Positions 6,894 to 19,483 of a stretch of 64,000 bases of DNA are shown piece by piece (within the stretch, counting starts at the first letter, position 1; each line of letters begins with the position of its first letter). The position numbers and the translations under genes are program-made. Under the pieces are notes generated by a model that searched no databases, was not told where the DNA came from, and worked only from the letters and a program-made list of their open reading frames with translations. Location of the stretch: the NCBI RefSeq assembly GCF_036967205.1, contig NZ_CP146022.1, forward strand, positions 2,418,001 through 2,482,000, given 5' to 3'. The DNA comes from Streptomyces sp. Q6 (GTDB taxonomy: Bacteria; Actinomycetota; Actinomycetes; Streptomycetales; Streptomycetaceae).

Positions 6894-6931
6894 TTAACTT
6901 GGGCGAAACAAATGGGTCATGCTTGAGAAAT
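6894..6931 (+). promoter_or_regulatory. GlnR operator upstream of glnA
   Basis: Four five-base boxes are spaced by exactly six bases: TTAAC, GAAAC, GTCAT, GAAAT. This is the a-b-a-b pattern of the Streptomyces GlnR site (consensus GTnAC-n6-GAAAC repeated). It lies 110 bases before the glnA start. GlnR is the global nitrogen regulator and activates glnA under nitrogen limitation in S. coelicolor; control here is inferred from the match. Confidence 0.88.
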
Positions 6932-7040
6932 CACGTCTGCTTATGGTCGGGTCCCAGCGTGTGCCACCGCACTGGCCGCACTGTCGAGCTGTACCGAGCT
7001 GCAACCCCGCCCCTCCCCGGGTGGGAGTAGGAGGAGTTGG

Positions 7041-8450
7041 ATGTTCCAGAACGCCGATGACGCCAAGAAGTTCATCGCGGATGAGGACGTCAAGTTCGTC
7101 GACGTCCGCTTCTGCGACCTGCCGGGTGTGATGCAGCACTTCACGGTGCCGGCTGCGGCGTTCGACCCGGCCGAGGAGCTCGCCTTCGACGGCTCCTCGA
7201 TCCGCGGCTTCCAGGCCATCCACGAGTCCGACATGGCGCTCCGCGCGGACCTGTCCACCGCCCGTGTGGACCCCTTCCGCCGCGACAAGACGCTGAACGT
7301 CAACTTCTTCATCCACGACCCGATCACGGGCGAGCAGTACTCCCGCGACCCGCGCAACGTGGCCAAGAAGGCCGAGGCGTACCTGGCCTCCACCGGCATC
7401 GCCGACACCGCGTACTTCGGCCCCGAGGCCGAGTTCTACGTCTTCGACTCGGTGCGCTTCGAGACCTCGGCCAACCGCTCGCTGTACGAGATCGACTCCG
7501 AGGCCGGCGCGTGGAACACGGGCGCGGTCGAGAACAACCGCGGCTACAAGGTCCGCTACAAGGGCGGCTACTTCCCGGCCCCGCCGGTCGACCACTTCGC
7601 CGACCTGCGTGCCGAGATCTCCCTGGAGCTGGACAAGAACGGCCTCCAGGTCGAGCGCCAGCACCACGAGGTCGGCACCGCCGGCCAGGCCGAGATCAAC
7701 TACAAGTTCAACACGCTGCTCGCCGCGGCCGACGACCTGATGCTCTTCAAGTACATCGTGAAGAACGTCGCCTGGCGCAACGGCAAGACCGCGACCTTCA
7801 TGCCGAAGCCGATCTTCGGTGACAACGGCTCGGGCATGCACGTCCACCAGTCCCTGTGGGCCGGTGGCGAGCCGCTCTTCTACGACGAGCAGGGCTACGC
7901 GGGCCTCTCGGACACCGCCCGCTACTACATCGGCGGCATCCTCAAGCACGCCCCGTCGCTCCTCGCCTTCACGAACCCGACCGTGAACTCGTACCACCGC
8001 CTGGTCCCGGGCTTCGAGGCGCCGGTCAACATGGTGTACTCGCAGCGCAACCGCTCCGCGGCCATGCGTATCCCGATCACGGGCTCGAACCCGAAGGCCA
8101 AGCGCGTCGAGTTCCGCGCGCCGGACCCGTCGTCGAACCCGTACCTCGCGTTCTCGGCGCTGCTCATGGCGGGCCTCGACGGCGTGAAGAACAAGATCGA
8201 GCCGGCCGAGCCGATCGACAAGGACCTGTACGAGCTGGCTCCCGAGGAGCACGCGAACGTCCAGCAGGTCCCGACCTCGCTCCCCGCGGTCCTCGACGCC
8301 CTCGAGGCGGACCACGAGTACCTCCTGGCCGGCGGTGTCTTCACCCCCGACCTGATCGAGACGTGGATCGACTACAAGCGCACGAACGAGATCGCCCCGA
8401 TCCAGCTCCGCCCGCACCCGCACGAGTTCGAGCTGTACTTCGACATCTAA
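7041..8450 (+). CDS. glnA: Type I glutamine synthetase
   Basis: GlnA condenses glutamate and ammonia using ATP and is the main ammonium-assimilating enzyme. It is 469 residues, normal for GSI-beta. Visible motifs are FDGSSIRGF near the N-terminus, the ATP-site region [12 protein letters not shown], the glutamate/metal-site [16 protein letters not shown], and the adenylylation region [14 protein letters not shown] with its target tyrosine. GAGTAGGAGGAG precedes the ATG. GlnE, which would modify that tyrosine, is encoded at 49336-52341. The last seven codons form one attachment-site copy of the downstream island, whose insertion left the coding sequence intact. Confidence 0.97.
8430..8450 (+). 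repeat. Island attachment-site copy inside the 3' end of glnA (left)
   Basis: The final 21 bases of glnA, including the stop codon, recur at 19463-19483 with a single mismatch (GAGCTG versus GAGCTC). The last 15 bases (TACTTCGACATCTAA) are identical. Identity stops at the stop codon on one side and at GAGCT on the other, as expected of a site-specific recombination core. Confidence 0.85.
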
Positions 8451-8503
8451 AACGCGGGGTCGGGTGACCTTGGTCGGAGACCCGGAAACGTGATGTGACC
8501 TGC

Positions 8504-8525
8504 GGAAACACCTTCCAGTGTTTCC
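8504..8525. terminator. Small hairpin inside the left island end
   Basis: An 8-bp perfect stem GGAAACAC / GTGTTTCC with a six-base loop lies 54 bases after the glnA stop. It may terminate glnA now that the native terminator has been displaced to 19531-19578. Confidence 0.4.
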
Positions 8526-8554
8526 CCTTGGTGCCGCTCGTTTTCCAGGCTGTT

Positions 8555-8574
8555 GTGCACCGGATGTGCACCGG
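8555..8574 (+). repeat. Putative integrase arm-type site, left end
   Basis: GTGCACCGGATGTGCACCGG holds two near-tandem copies of TGTGCACC and matches 18 of 20 bases of 19401-19420 in the same orientation. Directly repeated short sites on both sides of the crossover are how tyrosine integrase arm sites look. Confidence 0.5.
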
Positions 8575-8609
8575 TCCGGCAGGTTCCTGACTGAGCGTCA
8601 GAGTCATCG

Positions 8610-8650
8610 GTGAGGGCTGCTTCCCTGATTGCCAGGGAAGCAGCCCTCAC
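8610..8650. terminator. Strong 18-bp hairpin near the left island end
   Basis: A perfect 18-bp stem (8610-8627 with 8633-8650) with loop ATTGC. It is the longest perfect hairpin noticed in the window. It separates glnA from the island cargo and could stop transcription from either side. Confidence 0.65.
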
Positions 8651-8885
8651 TGCTTCAAAGGCGTCCGCGATAGATCTACAGTCATGCCGCGTTCGCCGTT
8701 TGGCTCCCGAACCCAGAGGCGACGGAGCGCTAGCCACTCGCCCAACGTGGCGCCATCTCTGCGGCAGCTGAGACGGGCATACGCTTCATCGGTAGCAGAC
8801 CGGTCACAAGGTCTCAGACCGCACGCCAGTTCACGCCCCGCCCGGATAGCATCTCCGGCGGGGCAAATTCGTTCGACGAAGGGGG
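8651..8885 (+). other. Leader region upstream of the reverse transcriptase, possible structured RNA
   Basis: No convincing coding sequence is present. The last part holds a stem CCCCGCC / GGCGGGG (8836-8842 with 8857-8863) with an inner GGA/TCC pairing, ending 22 bases before the reverse transcriptase start. Several bacterial defence reverse transcriptases use an adjacent non-coding RNA; whether this one does is not shown by the sequence. Confidence 0.3.
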
Positions 8886-10388
8886 ATGGTGGACCTTTCC
8901 GGCAGGCTCACCAAGGCCAAAGATCTACTGATAGCGGGGGAGAGCGAATCCGAGGTGCCCGATGTCATCGGGTACCAAGACGTCCGGCATCAGTGGGAAC
9001 GCGGCTACCGCGAGATGCTGGAGCGGGCCATTGCAGACGGTGCATGCGGCCCGGACAGCACCAGCATCATCGACTTCCCCAAGACGGACCTGACTGTGCG
9101 GCCCCTGGCCCGTTTCTCCACCCGAGACCGGCTTATATACGATGCCCTTGTTTTCACGGTCGCAGATGAGATCGACCGCCAGCTCCATCCTGGAGTCTCG
9201 AGCTACCGGTGGAACCACCACAAGGGCGAGCCCATCCGATGGTGGACCAACTGGACGTCATACCGAACAAAGTCGCTGCAGGCAATCCGCTCCGACACAT
9301 CGCTCAGGGTCGCCTACCTCGACATCGCAGCCTTCTACGAGCACATCGACGTGGCCATCCTCGGAGACGACCTAGAAGCCCTCAGCGGCGGCCATCGCGC
9401 CGCTGGCCACATCACCAACTTCCTCAGCCGGTTTCAAACCATCAATCACGCATGGGGCCTGCCTCAGGGGCCAGACGCCTCCGGCATACTCGCCAACCTT
9501 TACCTCGCCCCCGTTGATTCCTACCTGGCCCGGAACAGCGCCAGGTTCCTTCGCTACTCCGACGACATAAAGGTCTTCCACCCCGACTGGAGTGAGCTGC
9601 GCGATCTCTTCCTCGGAGTGAACAGTCAGCTGCGCTCCCGAAGACTCTCTATTTCATCCAGCAAGACCACAATTCTTGACCCCCAAGACGCCAGGGAACG
9701 CGAAACCGACATCCGGCATGACTCCTTGGCTGGCGCCATTAAGTACGGCCGTCCGCGCGCTCGGGAGAATCTCGTGAGCTACTTCGAAAGGATCGCCAAA
9801 GAGGGAGAGTTCAACGGGAATCAGGTCCGTTTCGTTCTCGGCCAGCTCAGCCGAATCAGAGACGATCGCGCGGTCGGCTGGTGCCTGGATAATCTCATCC
9901 GCCTGCCCCACGCCATCACGCACGTTTTCAAGTACCTGAATGCGGCCAAGAGTAGAACGTTCGAAGTCGAAAGCGCCTTGGTCGATTTTCTACACTCCAG
10001 TCACAGCGCCGCCCACCCGTTGATCGAGCAGCGCGTTCTGCGCTACTTCACCGCCATGGACATCAAGGAAGAAAGAGTGAAAGAAGCCGCGTGGGCCATC
10101 CTCGGGGACCGGAACCGGGTCGACTACGCGCGTGAGTTCGCCGCCCGCTACATCGGGGAGCACGCATCTGTTGCCGAGGCTCAAATGCTCCGCCACCGCT
10201 TCGAGGGGGAAAACGACGCTGCGGTCCGACGCGCCCTACTCGTCTCACTGCACGAGGCGGGATACCTAACAACCCGCTACCGCAACGAGGTCGAAGCCTC
10301 CATCCCTGGCATGAAATGGCTCTGCAATTTCCTTGCCACTAGCCCCGCCATACGCCCGCCCCAGATTGGACCCTATGCCTACTTCTGA
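8886..10388 (+). CDS. Reverse transcriptase of the unknown-group/Abi (defence) type
   Basis: The RT palm motifs are clear: motif A DIAAFYEHID (146-155), motif B GLPQGPDAS (191-199), motif C YSDD (224-227), followed by a basic SSSKTTIL. The last 240 or so residues are alpha-helical and repeat-like, as in AbiK/UG-type reverse transcriptases. There is no maturase, endonuclease or intron structure, so a group II intron protein is unlikely. ATG 8886 directly abuts AAGGGGG, so GTG 8889 may be the true start. Its stop lies 14 bases inside the SLATT gene, implying one transcript. Inferred role is antiphage defence. Confidence 0.85.
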   Translation: MVDLSGRLTKAKDLLIAGESESEVPDVIGYQDVRHQWERGYREMLERAIADGACGPDSTSIIDFPKTDLTVRPLARFSTRDRLIYDALVFTVADEIDRQLHPGVSSYRWNHHKGEPIRWWTNWTSYRTKSLQAIRSDTSLRVAYLDIAAFYEHIDVAILGDDLEALSGGHRAAGHITNFLSRFQTINHAWGLPQGPDASGILANLYLAPVDSYLARNSARFLRYSDDIKVFHPDWSELRDLFLGVNSQLRSRRLSISSSKTTILDPQDARERETDIRHDSLAGAIKYGRPRARENLVSYFERIAKEGEFNGNQVRFVLGQLSRIRDDRAVGWCLDNLIRLPHAITHVFKYLNAAKSRTFEVESALVDFLHSSHSAAHPLIEQRVLRYFTAMDIKEERVKEAAWAILGDRNRVDYAREFAARYIGEHASVAEAQMLRHRFEGENDAAVRRALLVSLHEAGYLTTRYRNEVEASIPGMKWLCNFLATSPAIRPPQIGPYAYF

Positions 10389-10866
10389 CACGCGGTTCGA
10401 GAGCACCAGAACCGAGTTGAAGCGCATCCAAAGCAATTGCCTCTACACCGCTCAAGGATACTTCGAAGCAGCCAAGAGCGCCGAGAAGTGGGGGCGCCTT
10501 ATGGTTTTCATTCCCGCCTGCGTGACCGCCATATGTAGCCTGCTGGTCGCGGTCAAGGTCGGCCCCCAATTGTTTTTCAGCGGACTCGGGGCCGTCGCCG
10601 GTGCAATCGCTGCCACCGCAGCCTTTCTAGGCTCCCCAAAGACGGCTGCTGACCATCTTGCATCCGCCCGCGCCTACACCGCCCTCAAGCATCGCGCGGA
10701 TACCGAGATCAGCCTCATGAATGAAGCATCCGACCCGGCGGTCCTCGAAGCAAGAACCCGAGAGCTGAGCGCCGACTACGTACGGATCACCTCCACCGAC
10801 ACTCCAATGGCGAACAAGTTCTATGAGAGGGCCCGCCAGCGGATACAACAGGGTTCGGCCGAGTGA
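10375..10866 (+). CDS. SLATT domain two-helix membrane protein paired with the reverse transcriptase
   Basis: 163 residues: a helical N-terminus (RFESTRTELKRIQSNCLYTA), two close transmembrane helices (about 41-62 and 66-86), then GSPKTAADHLASARAYTALK and a helical C-terminus. This is the layout of SLATT families, proposed pore-forming effectors in bacterial conflict systems, some of which are encoded with reverse transcriptases. ATG 10375 overlaps the RT gene by 14 bases with GGA upstream. Inferred role is membrane effector triggered by the RT or its product. Confidence 0.8.
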   Translation: MPTSDTRFESTRTELKRIQSNCLYTAQGYFEAAKSAEKWGRLMVFIPACVTAICSLLVAVKVGPQLFFSGLGAVAGAIAATAAFLGSPKTAADHLASARAYTALKHRADTEISLMNEASDPAVLEARTRELSADYVRITSTDTPMANKFYERARQRIQQGSAE

Positions 10867-10961
10867 CAGCACTACGCTTTAGTGATTGTCACCGGGCGGA
10901 GGGACTCACTCATGTCCACTAATAGGCGGCCCTCGCCGCCGTGCGCCACGGGCCCCTCGCT

Positions 10962-11495
10962 TTATCGCCAGCTATCGAGAGAGACCTGCGGTCCGCCTTC
11001 GAGATAGCAGTGAAGCGCACTGGCCGTGGTGTCGACGAACTCCTCTGGGATTGCATCGACGTCGATCCACCTCACCTGAGCATGCTTGCGGGGCTCACGG
11101 TTCTCGGGCTCACCAGACCATTCGTGCGCCGCGAACACGACGGTGAGGAAGCCGTTCGGAGCCTCAACCCCCCACGCGCCGTGGATGAGGTGGGCGACCT
11201 TCAACGCCTCAGGCTTCACGACCAGGCCGGTCTCCTCGTACAGCTCGCGCACCGCGGTCTGCGTGATCGGCTCCCCCGGTTCGCTCTTGCCGACCGGCAG
11301 ATCCCACATGCCCTGGGCGAACTTGGCGTTCTCACTGCGCTGCAGCAGCACGACGCGGTTGGTGGCCTTGTCATGGACGATGACAGCCGCGACCAGCAGG
11401 GTCATGGATTCGAGGGCGGGCTTGAGAGCTTGGGGGCGGGCATCGGTCGTCGACTCAGCCACGGGGTTCCCTTCGTCGGCCTGGTTGTTGGGCAT
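10962..11495 (-). CDS. Nudix hydrolase
   Basis: The Nudix box is complete: GKSEPGEPITQTAVRELYEETG matches GxxxxxGExxxxxAxREhxEExG. About 177 residues. The start is chosen at ATG 11495, one base after the stop of the XRE gene (TAA-C-ATG), so the two are translationally linked. Nudix proteins of this kind occur in actinomycete integrative elements (Pif of pSAM2, linked to transfer immunity); a housekeeping nucleotide-cleaning role is also possible. Substrate unknown. Confidence 0.88.
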   Translation of the reverse strand: MPNNQADEGNPVAESTTDARPQALKPALESMTLLVAAVIVHDKATNRVVLLQRSENAKFAQGMWDLPVGKSEPGEPITQTAVRELYEETGLVVKPEALKVAHLIHGAWGVEAPNGFLTVVFAAHEWSGEPENREPRKHAQVRWIDVDAIPEEFVDTTASALHCYLEGGPQVSLDSWR

Positions 11496-11496
11496 G

Positions 11497-12858
11497 TTAG
11501 GCGAGCGCCTCACGGGCTCGGCGAGCAAGTTCGGTCGCGCCCGGCACCTTGCGGCGCTGGTAGATCGCCAGGGGCGAGCGCAGGGACGAGATCGCCTTGC
11601 GGGTGCGGTCGGACGTCATGCCTTCCATCAGAGTCAGGGACTGGGACCACGCGGCGATTGCCTCGTCGGCGCGGGCCTGGGCGGCGAGGCTGTCGCCAAG
11701 GTCGGCGTACGTCAGGGCGTGGACGCGCTTGTACTGGACCGGGTCCCAGCGGGTGAGTGCAGCTCGGTGTTGGATCTCCGTGCCGGGGTGGTCGGCCAGA
11801 TCAGTGAGGGTGCGGGCGGTGTGGCTGGCGACGGTGCCGGTCGCTGGGCCGCTGACGCGGGAGTAGCTGGGCTGCGGGCCGTCCTCGCGGAGGAGCGCGC
11901 CCTCGGCGGCGAGGAGGGCGCGGGCGGCGGAAGGCTTCTCGCCGATGGCGGCGTACGCGCGGGCGTGGGTGATGTGGAGGAGGGCTTCGGTCTGGCCATC
12001 GACGCGGCCGAGCCCTCGGGTGAGCGCGCCTTCGACGAGGTCAACGCAGTGGTGGGGTTGCTTGAGGCTGAGGGCCTGGTGGGCGAGGGCGCGCATCATC
12101 CAGGCGGCGTGGCCGTTCGGGTCGGCTTCGCAGGCGAGTTGGTAGCCGACCTGGTAGTAGCGCTGGGCGGCGCCTTCCTGGCCGAGGTCGTGGTGCTTCC
12201 AGCCTGCCAGGTAGGCGAGTTCTGCGACCGCGCCGAAGGCTGCTTGGCGTAAGGCTTCGTTCGGAAAGCGGGCGCGGAGCATGGGGGCTGCGGTGTCGGC
12301 GAGGTAGGCGGTGACGGTGGTCAGGCCGTGGCCTCCGCCGAGGCGTTCGTCGGCGGAGCTGAACGCGGTGGTGATCTGGCGTACGACGTCGACGTCCTCG
12401 GCTCCGACCAAGACTCCCCCGGTGCGGGCGCGGAGCATGCGGGAGGTCGCCTCGTGATCGTAGGCGAGCGGCATTGCGACCCCGGCGGTGGTGAATGCGG
12501 CGATCGCCAGGAAGCGCCGGCGGTCGACGTCGGCGCGGCCCAGCTCCGTTGCGGCGACGACGGGATCAGGGTTCGCGGTGGCGGTCGGCGTCTCCGTCTG
12601 GCCGCGCAGGCCGATCTCCGTGGGTGTGACTGTGCGTGCCAGACGACGGGACAGGGCTTCGGCCAGGTACTGGCCCATGCGGCCGCTCGGCTCGCGTGCG
12701 CCGTTGACCCAGTGGGAGATCGCGGACTTGTTGGTCTGGAGGACCTCGCCGTTCTCAGCGGCGATGCGGCGCACGTCCTTCGCGAGGGCGTCGAAGGTGC
12801 AGCCGCTGGCAGAGATCACGTCGCGTAGACGTGAGTTGGGCTGGTTGGGCGTTGGCAC
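11497..12858 (-). CDS. XRE-type regulator with TPR-like C-terminal domain
   Basis: 453 residues. The N-terminal helix-turn-helix (about 8-60) includes CTFDALAKDVRRIAAENG and NKSAISHWVNGAREPSGR. A central DRRRFLAIAAFTTAGVAMPL segment, typical of these Streptomyces proteins, follows. A long alpha-helical repeat domain ends in YQRRKVPGATELARRAREAL. The start is GTG 12858 with GGGGAGG just upstream. It is cotranscribed with the Nudix gene. The pair may control element maintenance, as KorSA/Pra-type regulators do in related elements; this is inferred from context only. Confidence 0.85.
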   Translation of the reverse strand: MPTPNQPNSRLRDVISASGCTFDALAKDVRRIAAENGEVLQTNKSAISHWVNGAREPSGRMGQYLAEALSRRLARTVTPTEIGLRGQTETPTATANPDPVVAATELGRADVDRRRFLAIAAFTTAGVAMPLAYDHEATSRMLRARTGGVLVGAEDVDVVRQITTAFSSADERLGGGHGLTTVTAYLADTAAPMLRARFPNEALRQAAFGAVAELAYLAGWKHHDLGQEGAAQRYYQVGYQLACEADPNGHAAWMMRALAHQALSLKQPHHCVDLVEGALTRGLGRVDGQTEALLHITHARAYAAIGEKPSAARALLAAEGALLREDGPQPSYSRVSGPATGTVASHTARTLTDLADHPGTEIQHRAALTRWDPVQYKRVHALTYADLGDSLAAQARADEAIAAWSQSLTLMEGMTSDRTRKAISSLRSPLAIYQRRKVPGATELARRAREALA

Positions 12859-12946
12859 GACCTCCCCCGATCAGGAGCTGTAAACCGCGTATACCGCTTC
12901 CGCCGCCTCTCACCGTACCCACTGTGCGTGACGACCGGTTCACTAA

Positions 12947-13549
12947 TCATCAGCCGCCCGGAACGGTTCCAAGTTCGTCAACTGGCTGCAGAAGGACAAG
13001 GTCGTCCACATCCGCCGCCAGATCACCCACGACCGCGGCACCCTGGTCTTCGCCCCACCGAAGGGTGGCACAGAGGACGACGCCAAGGACCGCTTCGTAC
13101 CGGTCGGCGATGCACTGGCCGCGCTGCTCACCGAGCACATGCGCAAGCACCCGCCGGTTGAGGTCACTTTGCCGTGGATGACCAAGGACGGTGAGCCGGT
13201 GACCGTGCGCCTGGTGTTCACCACGCGCGAGCGCAAGCCGCTGAACAAGAACTACTTCAACTACCTCTGGAAGGCCGCTCTGGAGGCGATCGGCGCGATA
13301 ACAGCCTTGAACGACAGGCCTGTTGGCAAGGGCCGCAAGTGGGAGGAGTGCCGCGACAAGATGATGCACGCCCTACGGCACCTCTTTGCCTCCGAGGCGA
13401 TCAACGAGGGCGTCGACGTCTACACCCTCGCCGATCTCCTCGGCCATGAGGATCCTGCGTTCACGCTCCGCCGGTACGTCCACAGGGTGACCGGAGCGGT
13501 CGAAAAGGCCCGCAAGGCGATCGGCCGACGATATCGAGTCGCTGCGTAG
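12947..13549 (+). pseudogene. Tyrosine recombinase/integrase, N-terminal half missing
   Basis: The open frame starts after a TAA at 12944 with no start codon. It reads into a phage-integrase catalytic domain: FVPVGDALAALLTEHMRK, then HALRHLFASEAINEG (second arginine with its histidine), LADLLGHEDP (histidine) and LRRYVHRV (nucleophilic tyrosine). The N-terminal arm- and core-binding domains and the first catalytic arginine are absent. About 200 residues remain of an expected 380-420. It lies in the middle of the island rather than beside an attachment site, so rearrangement or deletion is likely. Confidence 0.85.
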
Positions 13550-13671
13550 TCCAATCTGCGTCTCATTCACCTTCCCTCGGCGAGGTTCGGCGAAGACAGC
13601 CCCCAGCGCCCGCTCATCCCCGACCATGGTTAAGGCCGCCAAGACCCGGAGCACAGTAACAGGGGGATCAC

Positions 13672-14037
13672 ATGCGCGTTGAGGTTCGCGTCGAGCCGTC
13701 GAACGACGAACTCCGTTCACTGCTCGCCTGGCTTCGTCAGGATCCTGACATCCGTCGGACCGCGACCCTGGAGATGCGCGAGCAGCCACCGCGCAAGGGC
13801 GAGATGGGGGCAGTCGCCGACGTTCTGCAGTTGATCACCGAGAACGGGTGGAACGCCGCGAACTTCACTCTGACGCTTGCTGCTTGGAAGCAGACACGGC
13901 CACGAGCCTCTCGCGTCACGGTCCGGCATAACGATCTCATCGACGCCTTGACGGACTGCAGCGATGAACAGATCGAGCGGATCACCCGGCTACTTCGGGA
14001 GGACCGGGGAGACGATCAGAGGGGCTCGGCAAGTTGA
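13672..14037 (+). CDS. Effector-associated constant component EACC1 family protein
   Basis: A 121-residue protein of the shape and motif content of EACC1 (MRVEVRVEPSNDELRSLLAW, then EMGAVADVLQLITENGWNAA and a C-terminal helix after SRVTVRHNDLIDAL). EACC1 proteins are small partners encoded next to caspases, trypsins and other effectors in actinobacterial conflict systems. ATG 13672 follows AGGGGG. Its TGA overlaps the TTG start of the caspase gene by four bases, so the two are coupled. Confidence 0.8.
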   Translation: MRVEVRVEPSNDELRSLLAWLRQDPDIRRTATLEMREQPPRKGEMGAVADVLQLITENGWNAANFTLTLAAWKQTRPRASRVTVRHNDLIDALTDCSDEQIERITRLLREDRGDDQRGSAS

Positions 14038-15191
14038 GCGTGTTTCCGGACGCCGGCGCTACAAAGGCGGTCCTGGTCGGGACGAGCACATACACCTTCC
14101 TCGAAGACCTGCCGGCCGTCTCCAACAACCTCAACTCCTTGGCCGAGGTACTCACTGGGCCCACGTCCTGGAATCTCAGCCGAGACGACTGCCACGTGCT
14201 CTCCGAGCCGACGAATGCGATTGCCGTGATGGACGCCCTGCGTGACGCCGGAGATGCAGCTAGGGACACGCTGCTTGTGTACTACGCGGGGCATGGGCTG
14301 GTCACACCAGAGGGCGAGCTCTATCTGGGGCTACCCCAATCCAGGCAGCAGCGGGTGGAGACGGGGCTTCAATACAGCTGGTTGCGGGGCGCGTTGTTGG
14401 AGGGAAGAGCGGAGCGGACTGTCGTCATACTCGACTGCTGCTACGCGGGCCTGGCCCTGGGAACAATGGGGCCCTCGGATCTGGCCGCCCAAGCCGATGT
14501 CGAGGGGACCTACCTTCTCGCCGCAGCCTCGGAGACCCGTCAGGCACTCGCCCCGCCCGGGGAGCCCCACACCGCATTCACTGGCGAGCTTCTCACGATC
14601 CTCACTACTGGTATTGCCGGAGGCCCCGAACAGCTCGACCTCGACAGCGTCTTCTTGCAGCTGAGGAAATCCCTCTCTGCGAAGGGGCATCCCGTCCCTC
14701 AAGGACGAGAACGTAACAGCAACGGCCAGCTCGCATTGGGCTGGAACCCTGCCTTCAGCCGAGCACCAGTGTCCACCAGCCACCGAGCGGGCTCCGCCGA
14801 CCTCCGCGCGTGGCCAGATCCGGCAGCCATCCGCAGCGTTGAAGGGTTCATCAGCGCATTGGGGCAAGTACGCGTCACCAGTGGCCTCACCCACTCAGCA
14901 ATCAGCCACCGTTCCGGCGGCCAGATCTCGACCGGAACGGTCAGCACCCTCCTCAACCGCAAGGATCTGCCCAGAACATGGCGGACAACCAGTGTCTATC
15001 TGACCGCCTGCGGGCTGCCGGACGAGCAGCTAAACGACTGGCAACTGCGCTGGGAGCAGCTGCGGTCGACTCTCACCACTACAACAGCCCCTGATGCCGA
15101 GGAGAAGCAGGCACGGAGAGAGGACACCCGCACTCCGACTACTTGGGGACGAGCTCTCCGACAGCTAACGCGACGGCGACTCCGTGACTGA
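14034..15191 (+). CDS. Caspase-family protease, EACC1-associated, with C-terminal helix-turn-helix-like domain
   Basis: The peptidase C14 dyad is present: histidine in LLVYYAGHGL (H87) and cysteine in VILDCCYAG (C136). The fold runs to about residue 240. The C-terminus (about 270-340: RSVEGFISALGQVRVTSG, STGTVSTLLNRKDLPRTW, VYLTACGLPDEQLNDW) resembles the helix-turn-helix module common in Streptomyces signalling proteins. TTG 14034 overlaps the EACC1 stop with GAGGGG ten bases upstream; GTG 14040 is an alternative. Inferred role is a regulated suicide or processing protease; the target is unknown. No NTPase partner sits beside it. Confidence 0.88.
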   Translation: MSVFPDAGATKAVLVGTSTYTFLEDLPAVSNNLNSLAEVLTGPTSWNLSRDDCHVLSEPTNAIAVMDALRDAGDAARDTLLVYYAGHGLVTPEGELYLGLPQSRQQRVETGLQYSWLRGALLEGRAERTVVILDCCYAGLALGTMGPSDLAAQADVEGTYLLAAASETRQALAPPGEPHTAFTGELLTILTTGIAGGPEQLDLDSVFLQLRKSLSAKGHPVPQGRERNSNGQLALGWNPAFSRAPVSTSHRAGSADLRAWPDPAAIRSVEGFISALGQVRVTSGLTHSAISHRSGGQISTGTVSTLLNRKDLPRTWRTTSVYLTACGLPDEQLNDWQLRWEQLRSTLTTTTAPDAEEKQARREDTRTPTTWGRALRQLTRRRLRD

Positions 15192-15380
15192 CTGGACCGT
15201 CCTCTTAGGTTCCGGCTTCGCCTTGTCACCGTCGTCGCCGAAGAGGGAATTCCAAGCAGCGATCAACAAAAGCACACCCACCACAACGCCCCAGAATGCC
15301 GGCTTCTTAGCCCTTCTGGATACCATCGTCGGCTTCACGTAGTGCGCTGCCCGGTAGTAGCCCTTCCTTGTCTGCGCCAT
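15165..15380 (-). CDS. Small single-pass membrane protein (hypothetical)
   Basis: About 71 residues: basic N-terminus (MAQTRKGYYRAAHYVKP, then RRAKK), one transmembrane helix (FWGVVVGVLLLIAAW), and a charged tail. The organisation suggests a real gene rather than a shadow. It overlaps the caspase 3' end by 27 bases in convergent orientation. The start is taken at ATG 15380; ATG 15389 is also possible. Function unknown. Confidence 0.5.
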   Translation of the reverse strand: MAQTRKGYYRAAHYVKPTMVSRRAKKPAFWGVVVGVLLLIAAWNSLFGDDGDKAKPEPKRTVQSVTESPSR

Positions 15381-16169
15381 GGCGTGCATACCCCCGATTC
15401 GTTGCCCAGTACATCAGCTGTGAAGTGTGGCAGAGGTCCTGTTCCGGCAACCATCAGACCGGACACGACGGCCAGATCTAGTCGGCACCTGGCGCTCGTC
15501 CGCCCCTTGCCAGCATCCCAACGACCTGAATAGCCGCTGACATCCCCGCACAACTCGTACGTACGCGCGACAGGCCCAAGGGTCAACCGCCTCAGTGTGC
15601 CATCTTTGCCACTCGGTCGAGGTCTCGCCGAGTGGAGAGCGCAGGCGCCTCATCAGCCGTTCACGCCTACAGATTCCGCGCGGACAGCCTGGCCTGCTCT
15701 ACTACCAGATCAGCGACGCGCAAGCGCAACTCCTCACTTTGCCCTCAAGTGCGAGTGCACCACCAAGTTCGACCTCACTCGGATCGCCGACGGACTCCCC
15801 ATTGCGTCGGAGGATCAACTTCCTTTTGGAGCAGCGGATTTGCCTGATGTACATCTCGACGGACGGTTATAGTTGCGTCGAGCGTGGTGCAAGGCAGCAC
15901 CGTGGCGAACGGGTCCAGGGAATGCCCTGGAGGCCCCGAAATCCCGGAAGTTGACGGATCGGGGCTGTCGCTGGCACGGGTGGTACCTCCCATGAGGTTT
16001 GATCCCGGGTCGACGCGACAACGACGCCCGGAGCAGTGTTTGTACGACGTGGCGCGCGGCAGCAGAGCACCCCGCGCCCGCCTCCTCGAGCGTCTTCGCG
16101 AGGACAGCGGCCGGGCCCCTGGCAACGGTGTCGGGGAAATCCCATGCGTGCTCTCGGAGTTGACTGCCC
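15381..16169. other. Island stretch without a recognisable gene
   Basis: Short open frames exist on both strands but none shows a domain, a convincing start or Streptomyces-like codon bias. It may hold the promoter of the DUF3800 gene and the decayed remains of lost island genes. Confidence 0.5.
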
Positions 16170-16862
16170 ATGGCCGCAGAGAACAGTGCTGCCCCCTTGC
16201 GTCTCTACTTCGTCGACGATGGCGGTGACGCCCGCACGACCGCCGTCTTCGCCTCCTTAGGAATCGATCTTCCGCACATCGACACTGCAATGCGGCACTG
16301 GCTGGACTTCCGCGCCGAACTGGCCGCCGACGCACGGCTGGAAATCCCTGCCAACTCCTCACTTCATTCGGTGAAGCTCGCCGGCACCCGCGGTCGCCAC
16401 ATCCACCGCTCGCGCAGCACGGATCGCGCCACGCACCAACGGCACTCACAGGAGGTCATCCTGCGCGGCCTGCGGGCCACCGCCACGATGGCCGGTGCGC
16501 GAGTTCGTGCCGTATACCGAGAGACCGATAACTACGGGCGCGACCGGCCTGCCCTTTACGCCGCCCTGCTGAGCCGGCTCAACGCAGAACTCGCCGCGTC
16601 CGGCACCCACGGGGTCGTCATCCTCGACGGTGACGGCACAGAGGGTTCCCTACGGCGAGCCCACCGGGCGCTCCCGGACGCGGGGCGGCACATCATCGGC
16701 GACCCGGTTTTCCGGCCTGCTCGCAACCTAGACCTGCTGCAGGCAGCCGACATGCTCGCGTACTCGGCCTACCAGTCCATCGCCAAGCAGCCGTCCCGCG
16801 CGTTCATGTGGCACTGGTTCGGTACCACGTTCCCCGGTGCCCATGGGCCCAGCGCCATGTGA
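16170..16862 (+). CDS. DUF3800 domain protein
   Basis: The family pattern is visible: an N-terminal acidic strand (LRLYFVDDGGD, usually FxDESG), a central HGVVILDGDG, and the C-terminal helix LDLLQAADMLAYSAYQSI. DUF3800 is thought to be an RNase H-fold protein frequently found in mobile and defence loci. 230 residues. It is followed 136 bp later by the large orphan gene in the same direction. Biochemical role unproven. Confidence 0.82.
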   Translation: MAAENSAAPLRLYFVDDGGDARTTAVFASLGIDLPHIDTAMRHWLDFRAELAADARLEIPANSSLHSVKLAGTRGRHIHRSRSTDRATHQRHSQEVILRGLRATATMAGARVRAVYRETDNYGRDRPALYAALLSRLNAELAASGTHGVVILDGDGTEGSLRRAHRALPDAGRHIIGDPVFRPARNLDLLQAADMLAYSAYQSIAKQPSRAFMWHWFGTTFPGAHGPSAM

Positions 16863-16998
16863 GGAAAGCGCTACGTGGAAAGGGGCTGGGCCCCGGGCGA
16901 AGCCGGAGCCCAGCCGGGCCGGACCTGGAACCCCGAGCGAGTCGGGCCAGGACCGCACATCCAGTCTTCCACATCAACCACCAATGAGGAGGGGCGCG

Positions 16999-19269
16999 AT
17001 GCCCACATCTGAGCCCGCCACACCCATCACCGTCTTGTGGGGTAAACAGCAGGTCGAAGTGTCAACCGTTGACAGCGAACTGCCAGGAACGTCCGTCGTG
17101 GACGACCGAATTAAGCTCGTCAAGGCAGGATTGAACACACCGCTGGCCTCGCTGCCCGAGGACGCCTGGCACGCGGTGGCCCGGGCCACCGTGACGCCCG
17201 ACACCGTCGCGCTCCAGTTGCGCGAGTCACAGAGCGACCGCACCAGCCTGCTCCTTGAAGAGCACGTCGACGCAGCCACCCTGCGGTCGGTGCACACTCG
17301 GGTCTGGCTGTCTGAGCTGTTCCCCGCCATTCAGCCGCGTACGGGCCAAGAACTCCTAGCTGTCGAGGACCCTCAGATTCAAGGCATGGCCGAGGACGGG
17401 AAGCCGCAGGCGATTCTGCGCTACCGCTACCAAAGCCTCAGGCATCTCAGGGACCATGTCTGGCAGACCATCTCGGCCACCCTGCACCGAAACTCCTACG
17501 CGGAATCGATCCTTGCCAGGCGGGTGACGCGCGCCCTGATCGTGCACCCGATCATCTACGATTTCGACGACGGTACGGAGTCGGTCTGCGCCCTTGTTGC
17601 CCGCGACGGCATTACGCGTCTGGCCAGTGCATGGAAGGTTCTGGCCGGTCCCGACAGCGATCCAGAGGCGGTCGCCGACCTGGCCGTGGAAACTCTCCTT
17701 GCCCAGCATCAGCCCTCTGCGAGCGAACCCGCCAAGCCGCTCACTCGGCGCATGGCACAGGCTCGGAAGACCCGGCGCGAGGGGTTGCGCGAGGAGTTCA
17801 CTAAGGAGATGGCCAAAGGCAAGACGGACGAGGCACCGACCCTGCGCGCTATCCAGATCGCCCAGACCTACCTCGTCCCAGCACAGGTAACGGTCGGTGC
17901 CCAGGCACACGAACGCGCCTCACTGAACGCTGACGATGCGTTCGACGACGCGCTGCGGTCCATCCTCGCGTCAGTCCATGTCGAGTTCAGGCCGTGGGAT
18001 GACGCCGCCAAGAACGTCGAGGTCGCCAGTCGAGCGCTGAAGCGCGTCCTCCACGATCGTTCGGGCGACAGTCGGAACGGGGGTGGACTGCACGCGGTCT
18101 ACGAACTGGCCGTCGGACGCCGCCGCGCGTCAGACACGCCTCAGGTGTACGGGGACGAAAGTATCCCCGGTGTTGGCTTGTGGCGTGCTGTCCTGCTGCT
18201 GCACACCCTGACCCGTCCAGTCATTTTCGAGGAGCTGAGAAGCCGGGCCAAGGAGATCAAGGGTGACCGCAGGATGACCGACAAGGGGTACGCCGGCCTG
18301 CTCGGCCCGATCATCGACCATCCCTGGCGATCCACCAAGAAGTCAGCTGCCCAGCAGGCCCGCAACGCCTGGAGCAATGGAGGCGTCCTCTTCAAGGAGG
18401 TGCTTGAGGATGGCTGGGCTCCCATGGTGACCGACGACTTCGCCACGCTGGTCGAGCCCGCACTCAAGGGCAGTCGCGATGCCCGCCTGACCCTCGCGCT
18501 AGCGGGTGGTACGGCCTTGATCGCCGACAAGCTGCTGACCAGGAACGTGGGTTCCGCTGTGAGCTTGACCCGGGCACCGGGCAAGGTCCCCTTCCGTGGA
18601 GACACACACAAGATCGTCGAAGGGTTGGCCCAGCCGGGCAACGAGCTCGGTTTCTGGACACTGGCATTGGCGGCCCAACGCTTCGAGGACAGCAGGCTGC
18701 CCCGTAACTCGGGCACCAAGCAACAGCTCGGTCTACCCAACGGCCAGGGCACCGAGGCAGAGGGCGATTACCAGCACATCGTGGTCGACCTAGAGACGCA
18801 TGACCGCCTCCTCCGGGAGGGCGGCGAGCCGGTCATGCTCTTGGAGTGGGACGTCGTAGTTGCCTCAGACCAGGAGCGCGCCCGCCAGATGCTCGGGCCG
18901 TCGACCTCCACGCAGTCGGACGGAGATACCCCCGAGGGCGCGAACGCGAACGGCGGCTCAGCAGCTCCCACCCCGCTGACAGAGGGGGATGAGACAGAGG
19001 GCCTCGGCGAGGTTTCGGACTCGGTCCCGGATGCGGAGAAGCCGGTCGGGCAGCAGCTCCAGGACAAACTGCGCTCGCTCACCAACTATCTGGCTGATGC
19101 CAAGACCTGCCTCGACGAGCTGGAGACGCTCGGTCAGGCTGTGACCTTCCCACCGCTGCTCGGCACCTCCGACCGCTGGAAGGAGCTGCGCGAGACCGCC
19201 CTCCACATCCTCAACGTGATCCAGAACCACGAGGGCGACTACGACGTGGAACGGACCGAGGACCGCTAA
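16999..19269 (+). CDS. Large protein of unknown function, island cargo (757 aa)
   Basis: ATG 16999 is preceded by GAGGAGGGG at good spacing; an upstream in-frame ATG at 16837 overlaps the DUF3800 end and is less likely. No family was recognised. A mid-N-terminal segment (RALIVHPIIYDFDDGTESV, then ARDGITRLASAWKVL, about residues 191-226) is reminiscent of the DGxxR core of ParB/DndB-like domains, offered only as a hint. The middle is basic and helical, and the C-terminus is acidic with a final helical segment. There is no signal peptide or membrane helix. The 3' end is about 190 bp from the right attachment site. Confidence 0.8.
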   Translation: MPTSEPATPITVLWGKQQVEVSTVDSELPGTSVVDDRIKLVKAGLNTPLASLPEDAWHAVARATVTPDTVALQLRESQSDRTSLLLEEHVDAATLRSVHTRVWLSELFPAIQPRTGQELLAVEDPQIQGMAEDGKPQAILRYRYQSLRHLRDHVWQTISATLHRNSYAESILARRVTRALIVHPIIYDFDDGTESVCALVARDGITRLASAWKVLAGPDSDPEAVADLAVETLLAQHQPSASEPAKPLTRRMAQARKTRREGLREEFTKEMAKGKTDEAPTLRAIQIAQTYLVPAQVTVGAQAHERASLNADDAFDDALRSILASVHVEFRPWDDAAKNVEVASRALKRVLHDRSGDSRNGGGLHAVYELAVGRRRASDTPQVYGDESIPGVGLWRAVLLLHTLTRPVIFEELRSRAKEIKGDRRMTDKGYAGLLGPIIDHPWRSTKKSAAQQARNAWSNGGVLFKEVLEDGWAPMVTDDFATLVEPALKGSRDARLTLALAGGTALIADKLLTRNVGSAVSLTRAPGKVPFRGDTHKIVEGLAQPGNELGFWTLALAAQRFEDSRLPRNSGTKQQLGLPNGQGTEAEGDYQHIVVDLETHDRLLREGGEPVMLLEWDVVVASDQERARQMLGPSTSTQSDGDTPEGANANGGSAAPTPLTEGDETEGLGEVSDSVPDAEKPVGQQLQDKLRSLTNYLADAKTCLDELETLGQAVTFPPLLGTSDRWKELRETALHILNVIQNHEGDYDVERTEDR

Positions 19270-19462: not shown

Positions 19463-19483
19463 GAGCTCTACTTCGACATCTAA
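19463..19483 (+). repeat. Island attachment-site copy (right)
   Basis: A second copy of the last 21 bases of glnA (20 of 21 identical; TACTTCGACATCTAA exact), encoding the GlnA C-terminus ELYFDI-stop without the rest of the gene. It marks the right boundary of the island. Confidence 0.85.

Follow-up and report, generated by a model that had tools for sequence, protein, structure and literature searches.

The reverse transcriptases (RTs) of DRT systems have been described by class. Class 1 DRTs are reported to have HEAT-like repeats and to synthesize DNA without a nucleic-acid template, and class 2 DRTs to depend on cis-encoded ncRNAs (PMC13174585). In class 3 DRTs, a nitrilase or phosphohydrolase is present as a domain or as a partner protein (PMC13174585, PMC13275509), and one of them, DRT1, is described as template-free and protein-primed (PMC13275509). 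For DRT10, defence is reported to depend on SLATT as well as on catalysis by the RT, and control of SLATT by the cDNA has been proposed (PMC12632851). How the DNA made by an RT leads to defence via a membrane partner is a stated open question for DRT9 and DRT10 (PMC12632851 for DRT10). UG23 is listed as an RT class by myRT (PMC8934634).

We analyzed a 64,000-nt stretch of DNA from Streptomyces sp. Q6 (NZ_CP146022.1, positions 2,418,001 to 2,482,000; hereafter the window), in which an RT gene overlaps the gene of a SLATT membrane protein. UG classes of RTs were reportedly defined by Mestre et al. in 2022, and the UG23 RT type and its RTasSLATT and RTasNUDIX partners are already catalogued in PADLOC-DB 2023. 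By its profile matches, the window pair is a member of this catalogued type, UG23 with RTasSLATT. The suggestion of a sequence-only reading that the pair may represent an uncharacterised subgroup thus fails as to recognition but stands as to experiments, none of which were found for UG23 in open-licence PMC papers; UG23 is a predicted anti-phage defence type that is catalogued and apparently untested. What the present analysis adds is a switch of partner, the co-inheritance of RT and partner, an element slot shared by both versions, and a negative, low-powered search for an ncRNA.

The UG23 RT and its SLATT partner

The features of the two genes are as follows.
8889..10388 (+): UG23 RT gene, 499 aa from GTG 8889 or 500 aa from ATG 8886; PADLOC RT_UG23, 661 bits
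9555..9566 (+): codons of the YSDD catalytic motif, invariant in 15/15 aligned RTs
10008..10250 (+): HEAT-like part of the RT C-terminus, residues 374–454; HEAT_2, E 0.04, below cut-off
10375..10388 (+): overlap of the RT end and the SLATT start, 14 bases, from the ORF coordinates
10375..10866 (+): gene of the two-helix SLATT membrane protein, 163 aa, from ATG 10375; RTasSLATT
10498..10554 (+): predicted SLATT membrane helix 1, residues 42–60, by hydropathy
10570..10632 (+): predicted SLATT membrane helix 2, residues 66–86, by hydropathy

The RT frame can start at either codon and stops at 10388. Since GTG 8889 is kept in the loci of S. hiroshimensis (L002), S. tanashiensis (L003) and S. diastatochromogenes (L034) and ATG 8886 is not, the true start is probably GTG 8889; further in-frame candidate starts lie upstream in L002 and L003. 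RTs 85–90% identical to the window RT occur in three other Streptomyces. Numbered from GTG 8889, D145 and Y223-S224-D225-D226 are invariant in all 15 aligned RTs, and the window RT, judged by this alignment, has intact catalytic motifs. The protein also matches Pfam RVT_1 above cut-off (49.9 bits). The long helical C-terminus of the sequence-only reading is consistent with the HEAT_2 match, which recurs at E up to 0.1 in six of 15 family members (best 3.6e-05). Family-profile scans of the 500-aa window RT gave no match to a fused nitrilase or phosphohydrolase domain. Beyond residue 421, no Ser, Thr or Tyr is invariant among the aligned RTs, and a C-terminal-tail primer of the DRT3b or DRT10 kind is thus not seen. 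Y349 and Y421, both C-terminal to the RT domain, are invariant and by conservation are candidate priming residues. In L034, a TAG at 9495–9497 of that locus falls at RT residue 477 of 499 while the SLATT frame is intact; this early stop may be a real truncation or an assembly error.

RT_UG23 is followed among the PADLOC models by RT_UG21 (219 bits), and RT_UG17 reaches 47 bits. The group II maturase and retron models stay far below their cut-offs, at 65 bits versus 300 and 31 bits versus 235. A maximum-likelihood tree was built from 29 proteins: 20 UG23 or UG23-like RTs, 4 other UG, 3 group II, 1 Cas-RT and 1 retron, with the reference rows typed by PADLOC and L034 excluded because of its early stop. 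In this tree, for which the program flags several long branches, a branch with support 99/97 separates the 24 UG rows from the five group II, Cas-RT and retron references. A single clade unites the 19 full-length UG23 rows (88/95), at a node that the program did not star. The window RT stands with the UG rows, apart from group II maturases and retrons, so that the grouping named as refuting in the sequence-only reading did not occur. When the UG23 family profile was compared with PDB chains, the best matches were group-II-type RTs (67 bits, over the RT domain), and those to 9ioa, which we take to be DRT9, to DRT4 (UG15) and to AbiK scored 40, 35 and 29 bits.

The partner matches PADLOC RTasSLATT (207 bits, E 2.2e-62) and NCBIfam SLATT_4 (62.6 bits versus a cut-off of 55), with a sub-cut-off match only to Pfam SLATT_1, and its hydropathy plot has two hydrophobic peaks. 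At the chosen starts, the partner begins at −14 to +24 relative to the RT stop in the 18 loci whose genes are intact, a count made without L034 because of its early RT stop. The 14-base overlap is common to the window, L002 and L003 and is absent from the other intact loci. Since the RT–SLATT pair is kept in 11 of the 20 full-length UG23 loci, window included, a chance pairing is excluded. The YSDD motif, the two-helix SLATT protein and the 14-base overlap that the sequence-only reading had described were all recovered, and its proposal of a UG/DRT-type RT with a SLATT partner as a candidate defence system is supported by the PADLOC models and the tree.

Two partner types and their co-inheritance with the RT

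Directly after the RT, the 20 full-length UG23 loci have a SLATT gene in 11 cases (the window, L002, L003, L034, L022, L031, L028, L025, L035, L055 and L057), a gene for a 2TM-NUDIX protein of 261–263 aa in eight (L023, L026, L027, L024, L030, L029, L032 and L033), and neither in one (L056). Two further loci with weak UG23 matches, L036 (215 bits) and L037 (156 bits), were set aside before counting. Partner HMM matches were run for the SLATT proteins of the window and L035 and for the NUDIX proteins of L023 and L033, the latter two matching Sa_NUDIX and RTasNUDIX; the other partners were assigned by alignment. L056 has a UG23-like RT (554 bits) with RFSDD in place of YSDD, a TauD-like neighbour, and no SLATT or NUDIX gene.

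The NUDIX-linked RTs form a single clade with support 99/99, which implies a single switch of partner. Counted on the tree, with L056 left uncounted, the fewest partner changes amount to one, so that one SLATT to 2TM-NUDIX effector switch would be the simplest history. Distances between RTs correlate closely with those between their partners in Mantel tests, both for SLATT (r = 0.96, 10 loci, none of 5000 permutations as high) and for NUDIX (r = 0.97, 7 loci, 5/5000 as high). L034 has no place in the tree, in alignment A3 or in the Mantel test but was kept as a SLATT locus; A3 and the NUDIX test do not include L026, whose RT is identical to that of L027, and L055–L057, added later, are absent from A3. 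These correlations indicate that RT and partner are inherited together across the relatives. Because a single RT lineage has changed its partner, the RT may be both the sensor and the source of the signal, with the membrane protein as an exchangeable output, and we infer for the window pair a sensor role of the RT and a pore-forming effector role of SLATT.

The glnA island and the mobile context

Two copies of a 15-bp repeat bound the DNA in which the cassette lies.
8436..8450 (+): left attachment repeat TACTTCGACATCTAA, at the glnA end
19469..19483 (+): right attachment repeat TACTTCGACATCTAA

Between them, an island of about 11 kb occupies the 3′ end of glnA. The glnA end is present in 30 of 31 genomes, own included. 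When the loci of 11 relatives were compared, three (L043, L046 and L048) matched the right flank of the window, and L048 is an empty site in which glnA runs directly into this flank. Repeat and empty site together bear out the earlier proposal of a glnA-integrated Streptomyces island.

Several other genes lie on the island. A 136-aa frame at 13139–13549 (+) matches only the C-terminal half of Phage_integrase (profile positions 93–168 of 172), and the island's integrase may have decayed. At 13672–15191 (+), an EACC1 gene is followed by an overlapping gene for a caspase-like Peptidase_C14; this pair has no PADLOC match and is likely a second conflict system on the island. At the right end, 16170–19269 (+), a DUF3800 gene overlaps the gene of an 810-aa protein without a Pfam or PADLOC match.

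S. hiroshimensis (L002) shares at least 6902–12964 with the window. S. tanashiensis (L003) and S. diastatochromogenes (L034) have only 8791–10870 of the region 6901–16500 in common with it, and the leader therefore moves together with the RT and SLATT genes as a single cassette. One SLATT locus (L028) and four NUDIX loci (L023, L026, L027 and L029) have both flanks in common but differ in the cassette, and thus one element slot holds either the SLATT or the NUDIX version. In L028 and L029, family scans place RepSA of pSAM2 and FtsK/SpoIIIE beside the cassette; L029 also has GntR-UTRA there, and L028 has a NUDIX gene and an integrase gene. Such flank genes are typical of the pSAM2-like integrative elements of actinomycetes. 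Phage defence can be part of the cargo of mobile elements.

In whole-genome draws that overlap one another, RT_UG23 was found in 16/392 Streptomyces genomes (own and one weak match included), 3/120 genomes of relatives (own included), 9/346 relatives of a genome of the same genus (G271), 4/394 genomes from the class (own included) and 2/396 genomes of the phylum (one of them its own, the other a weak match). A second genus draw gave 11/313, all already in earlier draws, and the named-genome scan gave three. At E up to 1e-5, searches with the RT returned 27 plasmid records (at most 30% identity), one phage record (26%) and one locus in viral contigs (26%); at E up to 10 they returned 1192 plasmid records, all below 60% identity (60 of the 1192 listed). 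By these identities, the phage, plasmid and viral-contig collections returned distant RTs only. The plasmids gave no DNA match, and neither they nor the viral contigs gave a SLATT match.

The leader and the search for a template RNA

The cassette begins with a noncoding region just before the RT gene.
8791..8888 (+): conserved noncoding leader, common to the window, L002, L003 and L034
8835..8864 (+): hairpin GCCCCGCC/GGCGGGGC just before the RT

If the module worked like DRT10, which itself consists of an RT, SLATT and an ncRNA (PMC12632851), the leader would encode a short ncRNA templating a tandem-repeat cDNA that controls SLATT. We regard this as unlikely. Between pairs of the four closest loci the leader is 81–89% identical with gaps left out, and in all six pairs it is more conserved than the 4-fold sites of the RT (64–73%); the 4-fold sites of SLATT are 63–86% identical, but in the pair L003/L034 they equal the leader in conservation (86.4 and 86.6%). 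L002, L003 and L034 share about 50 nt more upstream of it. Folding energy is low in three of the four close loci (z of −2.6, −3.0 and −2.1), while L034 has a z of +1.7. The eight-pair core of the hairpin has three one-sided (G-U) changes, which favour a conserved RNA, but also one broken cell, and outside the core one two-sided change stands beside three broken cells.

A covariance model of the leader, R1, recovered its four own seeds and one antisense fragment (E = 1) from 20 sources and no other locus, which argues against a DRT10-like RNA shared by the family; the template loop of DRT10 itself is, however, described as poorly conserved (PMC12632851). Upstream of the RT, 16 pairs were aligned and each was compared with 40 shuffles, which gave z above 3 in seven (L002/L003 25.7, L029/L030 18.5, L002/L034 16.3, L023/L027 5.2, L024/L030 3.9, L022/L031 3.6 and L024/L029 3.5), two of them among the four seeds, but only −0.8 to 1.8 in the other nine. 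This pattern is explained as well by promoters as by an RNA that changes fast. The RT family also speaks against a DRT10-like template, with 47 bits on RT_UG17 against 661 on UG23.

No constrained synonymous stretch was found in the RT of the window, L002 and L003, where a maximum as high as that observed arose in 1901 of 2000 shuffles. Rfam gave one sub-cut-off match on 8300–13700, to a miRNA family at the 8592–8666 palindrome and taken as chance, and one tRNA only on the loci of eight relatives. At 8610–8650 lies an inverted repeat of 18 bp, perfect and separated by a 5-base loop, inside the island and about 160 bases past glnA; it is nearly kept in L002 and is probably a terminator. A stretch of 150–300 nt after the effector gene (93% identical over 149 nt between the SLATT locus L025 and the NUDIX locus L029, and 84% over 322 nt between L023 and L026) is unlikely to be a family-wide ncRNA, since in L033 it is reversed and upstream of the RT and since L023, L026, L027, L028 and L029 share pSAM2-like element DNA around it; L025, L030 and L033 stand outside this backbone comparison. 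In these tests, which have low power because of the few close relatives, no family-wide ncRNA was detected. The leader, at about 100–150 nt, could be an ncRNA specific to its subclade.

Proposed mechanism

We consider, with a probability of roughly 0.5, that the pair is a two-gene UG23 DRT module in which protein-linked DNA made by the RT would control the membrane effector and abort infection. The RT would need no dedicated RNA template for its DNA synthesis. Its DNA would be primed on one of the hydroxyl residues of the RT and would probably be kept within an oligomer that the HEAT-like region forms. During infection, the membrane effector would be switched on either by the RT in its DNA-bound state or by the DNA, and would then permeabilise the membrane, aborting infection. 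The defence activity, DNA product and RT–effector coupling are inferred from sequence.

As no fused enzyme and no family-wide ncRNA were detected and the HEAT match is weak, we favour DNA synthesis that is untemplated and primed on protein, of the class 1 or class 3 kind. A point against a class 1 reading is the NUDIX partner, which is of a hydrolase type, as class 3 reportedly has. The group-II-type RTs among the best PDB matches, and L056 with its RFSDD motif and TauD-like neighbour, are counterpoints to the two-gene module as a whole.

The module might instead be a toxin–antitoxin pair, in which a toxic SLATT is silenced by the RT or by the DNA product until phage attack on that product releases it. 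This possibility was raised for DRT10, whose cDNA drops on infection (PMC12632851), retron DNA is reported to work as an antitoxin (PMC13275509), and the coupling and co-inheritance of RT and partner genes in UG23 loci would suit it; we nevertheless think it improbable, as the intact SLATT beside the early RT stop of L034 is compatible with a harmless SLATT, with the caveat that the truncated RT may still work or the stop be an assembly error. That the module serves the mobile element, by competitor exclusion or stabilisation, more than phage defence is very unlikely, although it lies on the glnA island in the window and between pSAM2-like element genes (RepSA, FtsK-type and GntR) in relatives, since DRT1, DRT9 and DRT10 are described as acting against phages (PMC13275509 for DRT1, PMC12632851 for DRT10).

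The two-gene module with protein-linked DNA thus stands as the preferred reading, and UG23 offers a natural experiment on it, with related RTs and the same element flanks combined with two different membrane proteins. Partner swaps between UG23 pairs would reveal directly whether it is the DNA or the RT to which the effector responds, or neither of them.

Comparison with known systems

The window pair agrees with the UG23 type of PADLOC in its best models, gene order and the close spacing of relatives, and nothing beyond sequence sets it apart from its UG23 relatives. DRT10 (UG17 with SLATT and an ncRNA) resembles it in an RT adjoining SLATT, a likely membrane effector, but has an RT of another family. 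The partner matches the SLATT_4 model, whereas SLATT_5 is reported beside UG17 (PMC8934634), and the DRT10 ncRNA is described upstream of SLATT (PMC12632851), with no family-wide counterpart detected in UG23. Because the RT is UG23 and not UG17, the comparison with DRT10 is an analogy of layout.

Class 1 DRT/Abi RTs (AbiK, AbiA and DRT3b) combine an RT with helical HEAT-like repeats, for which the window's match is weak; AbiK matches the UG23 profile over positions 174–381. The window differs from them in its separate membrane-protein gene, and its template-free synthesis is putative. Class 3 UG RTs have a fused enzyme domain, to which the window RT gave no match; a separate NUDIX protein is present in eight of the 20 loci.

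The SMODS/CBASS 2TM effectors are related on the output side. The PADLOC '2TM Effector' models, which we take to be CBASS effectors, match SLATT with 52 bits and NUDIX with 263 bits, and Pfam calls the NUDIX partner domain SMODS-associated. As a doubtful extension of the two-gene module, self-primed, untemplated DNA of UG23 might be the infection signal for interchangeable CBASS-type effectors, the signal being kept when the output switched from SLATT to 2TM-NUDIX. The RT would then replace the cyclic-nucleotide synthase, in whose stead an RT adjoins the effector in UG23 loci.
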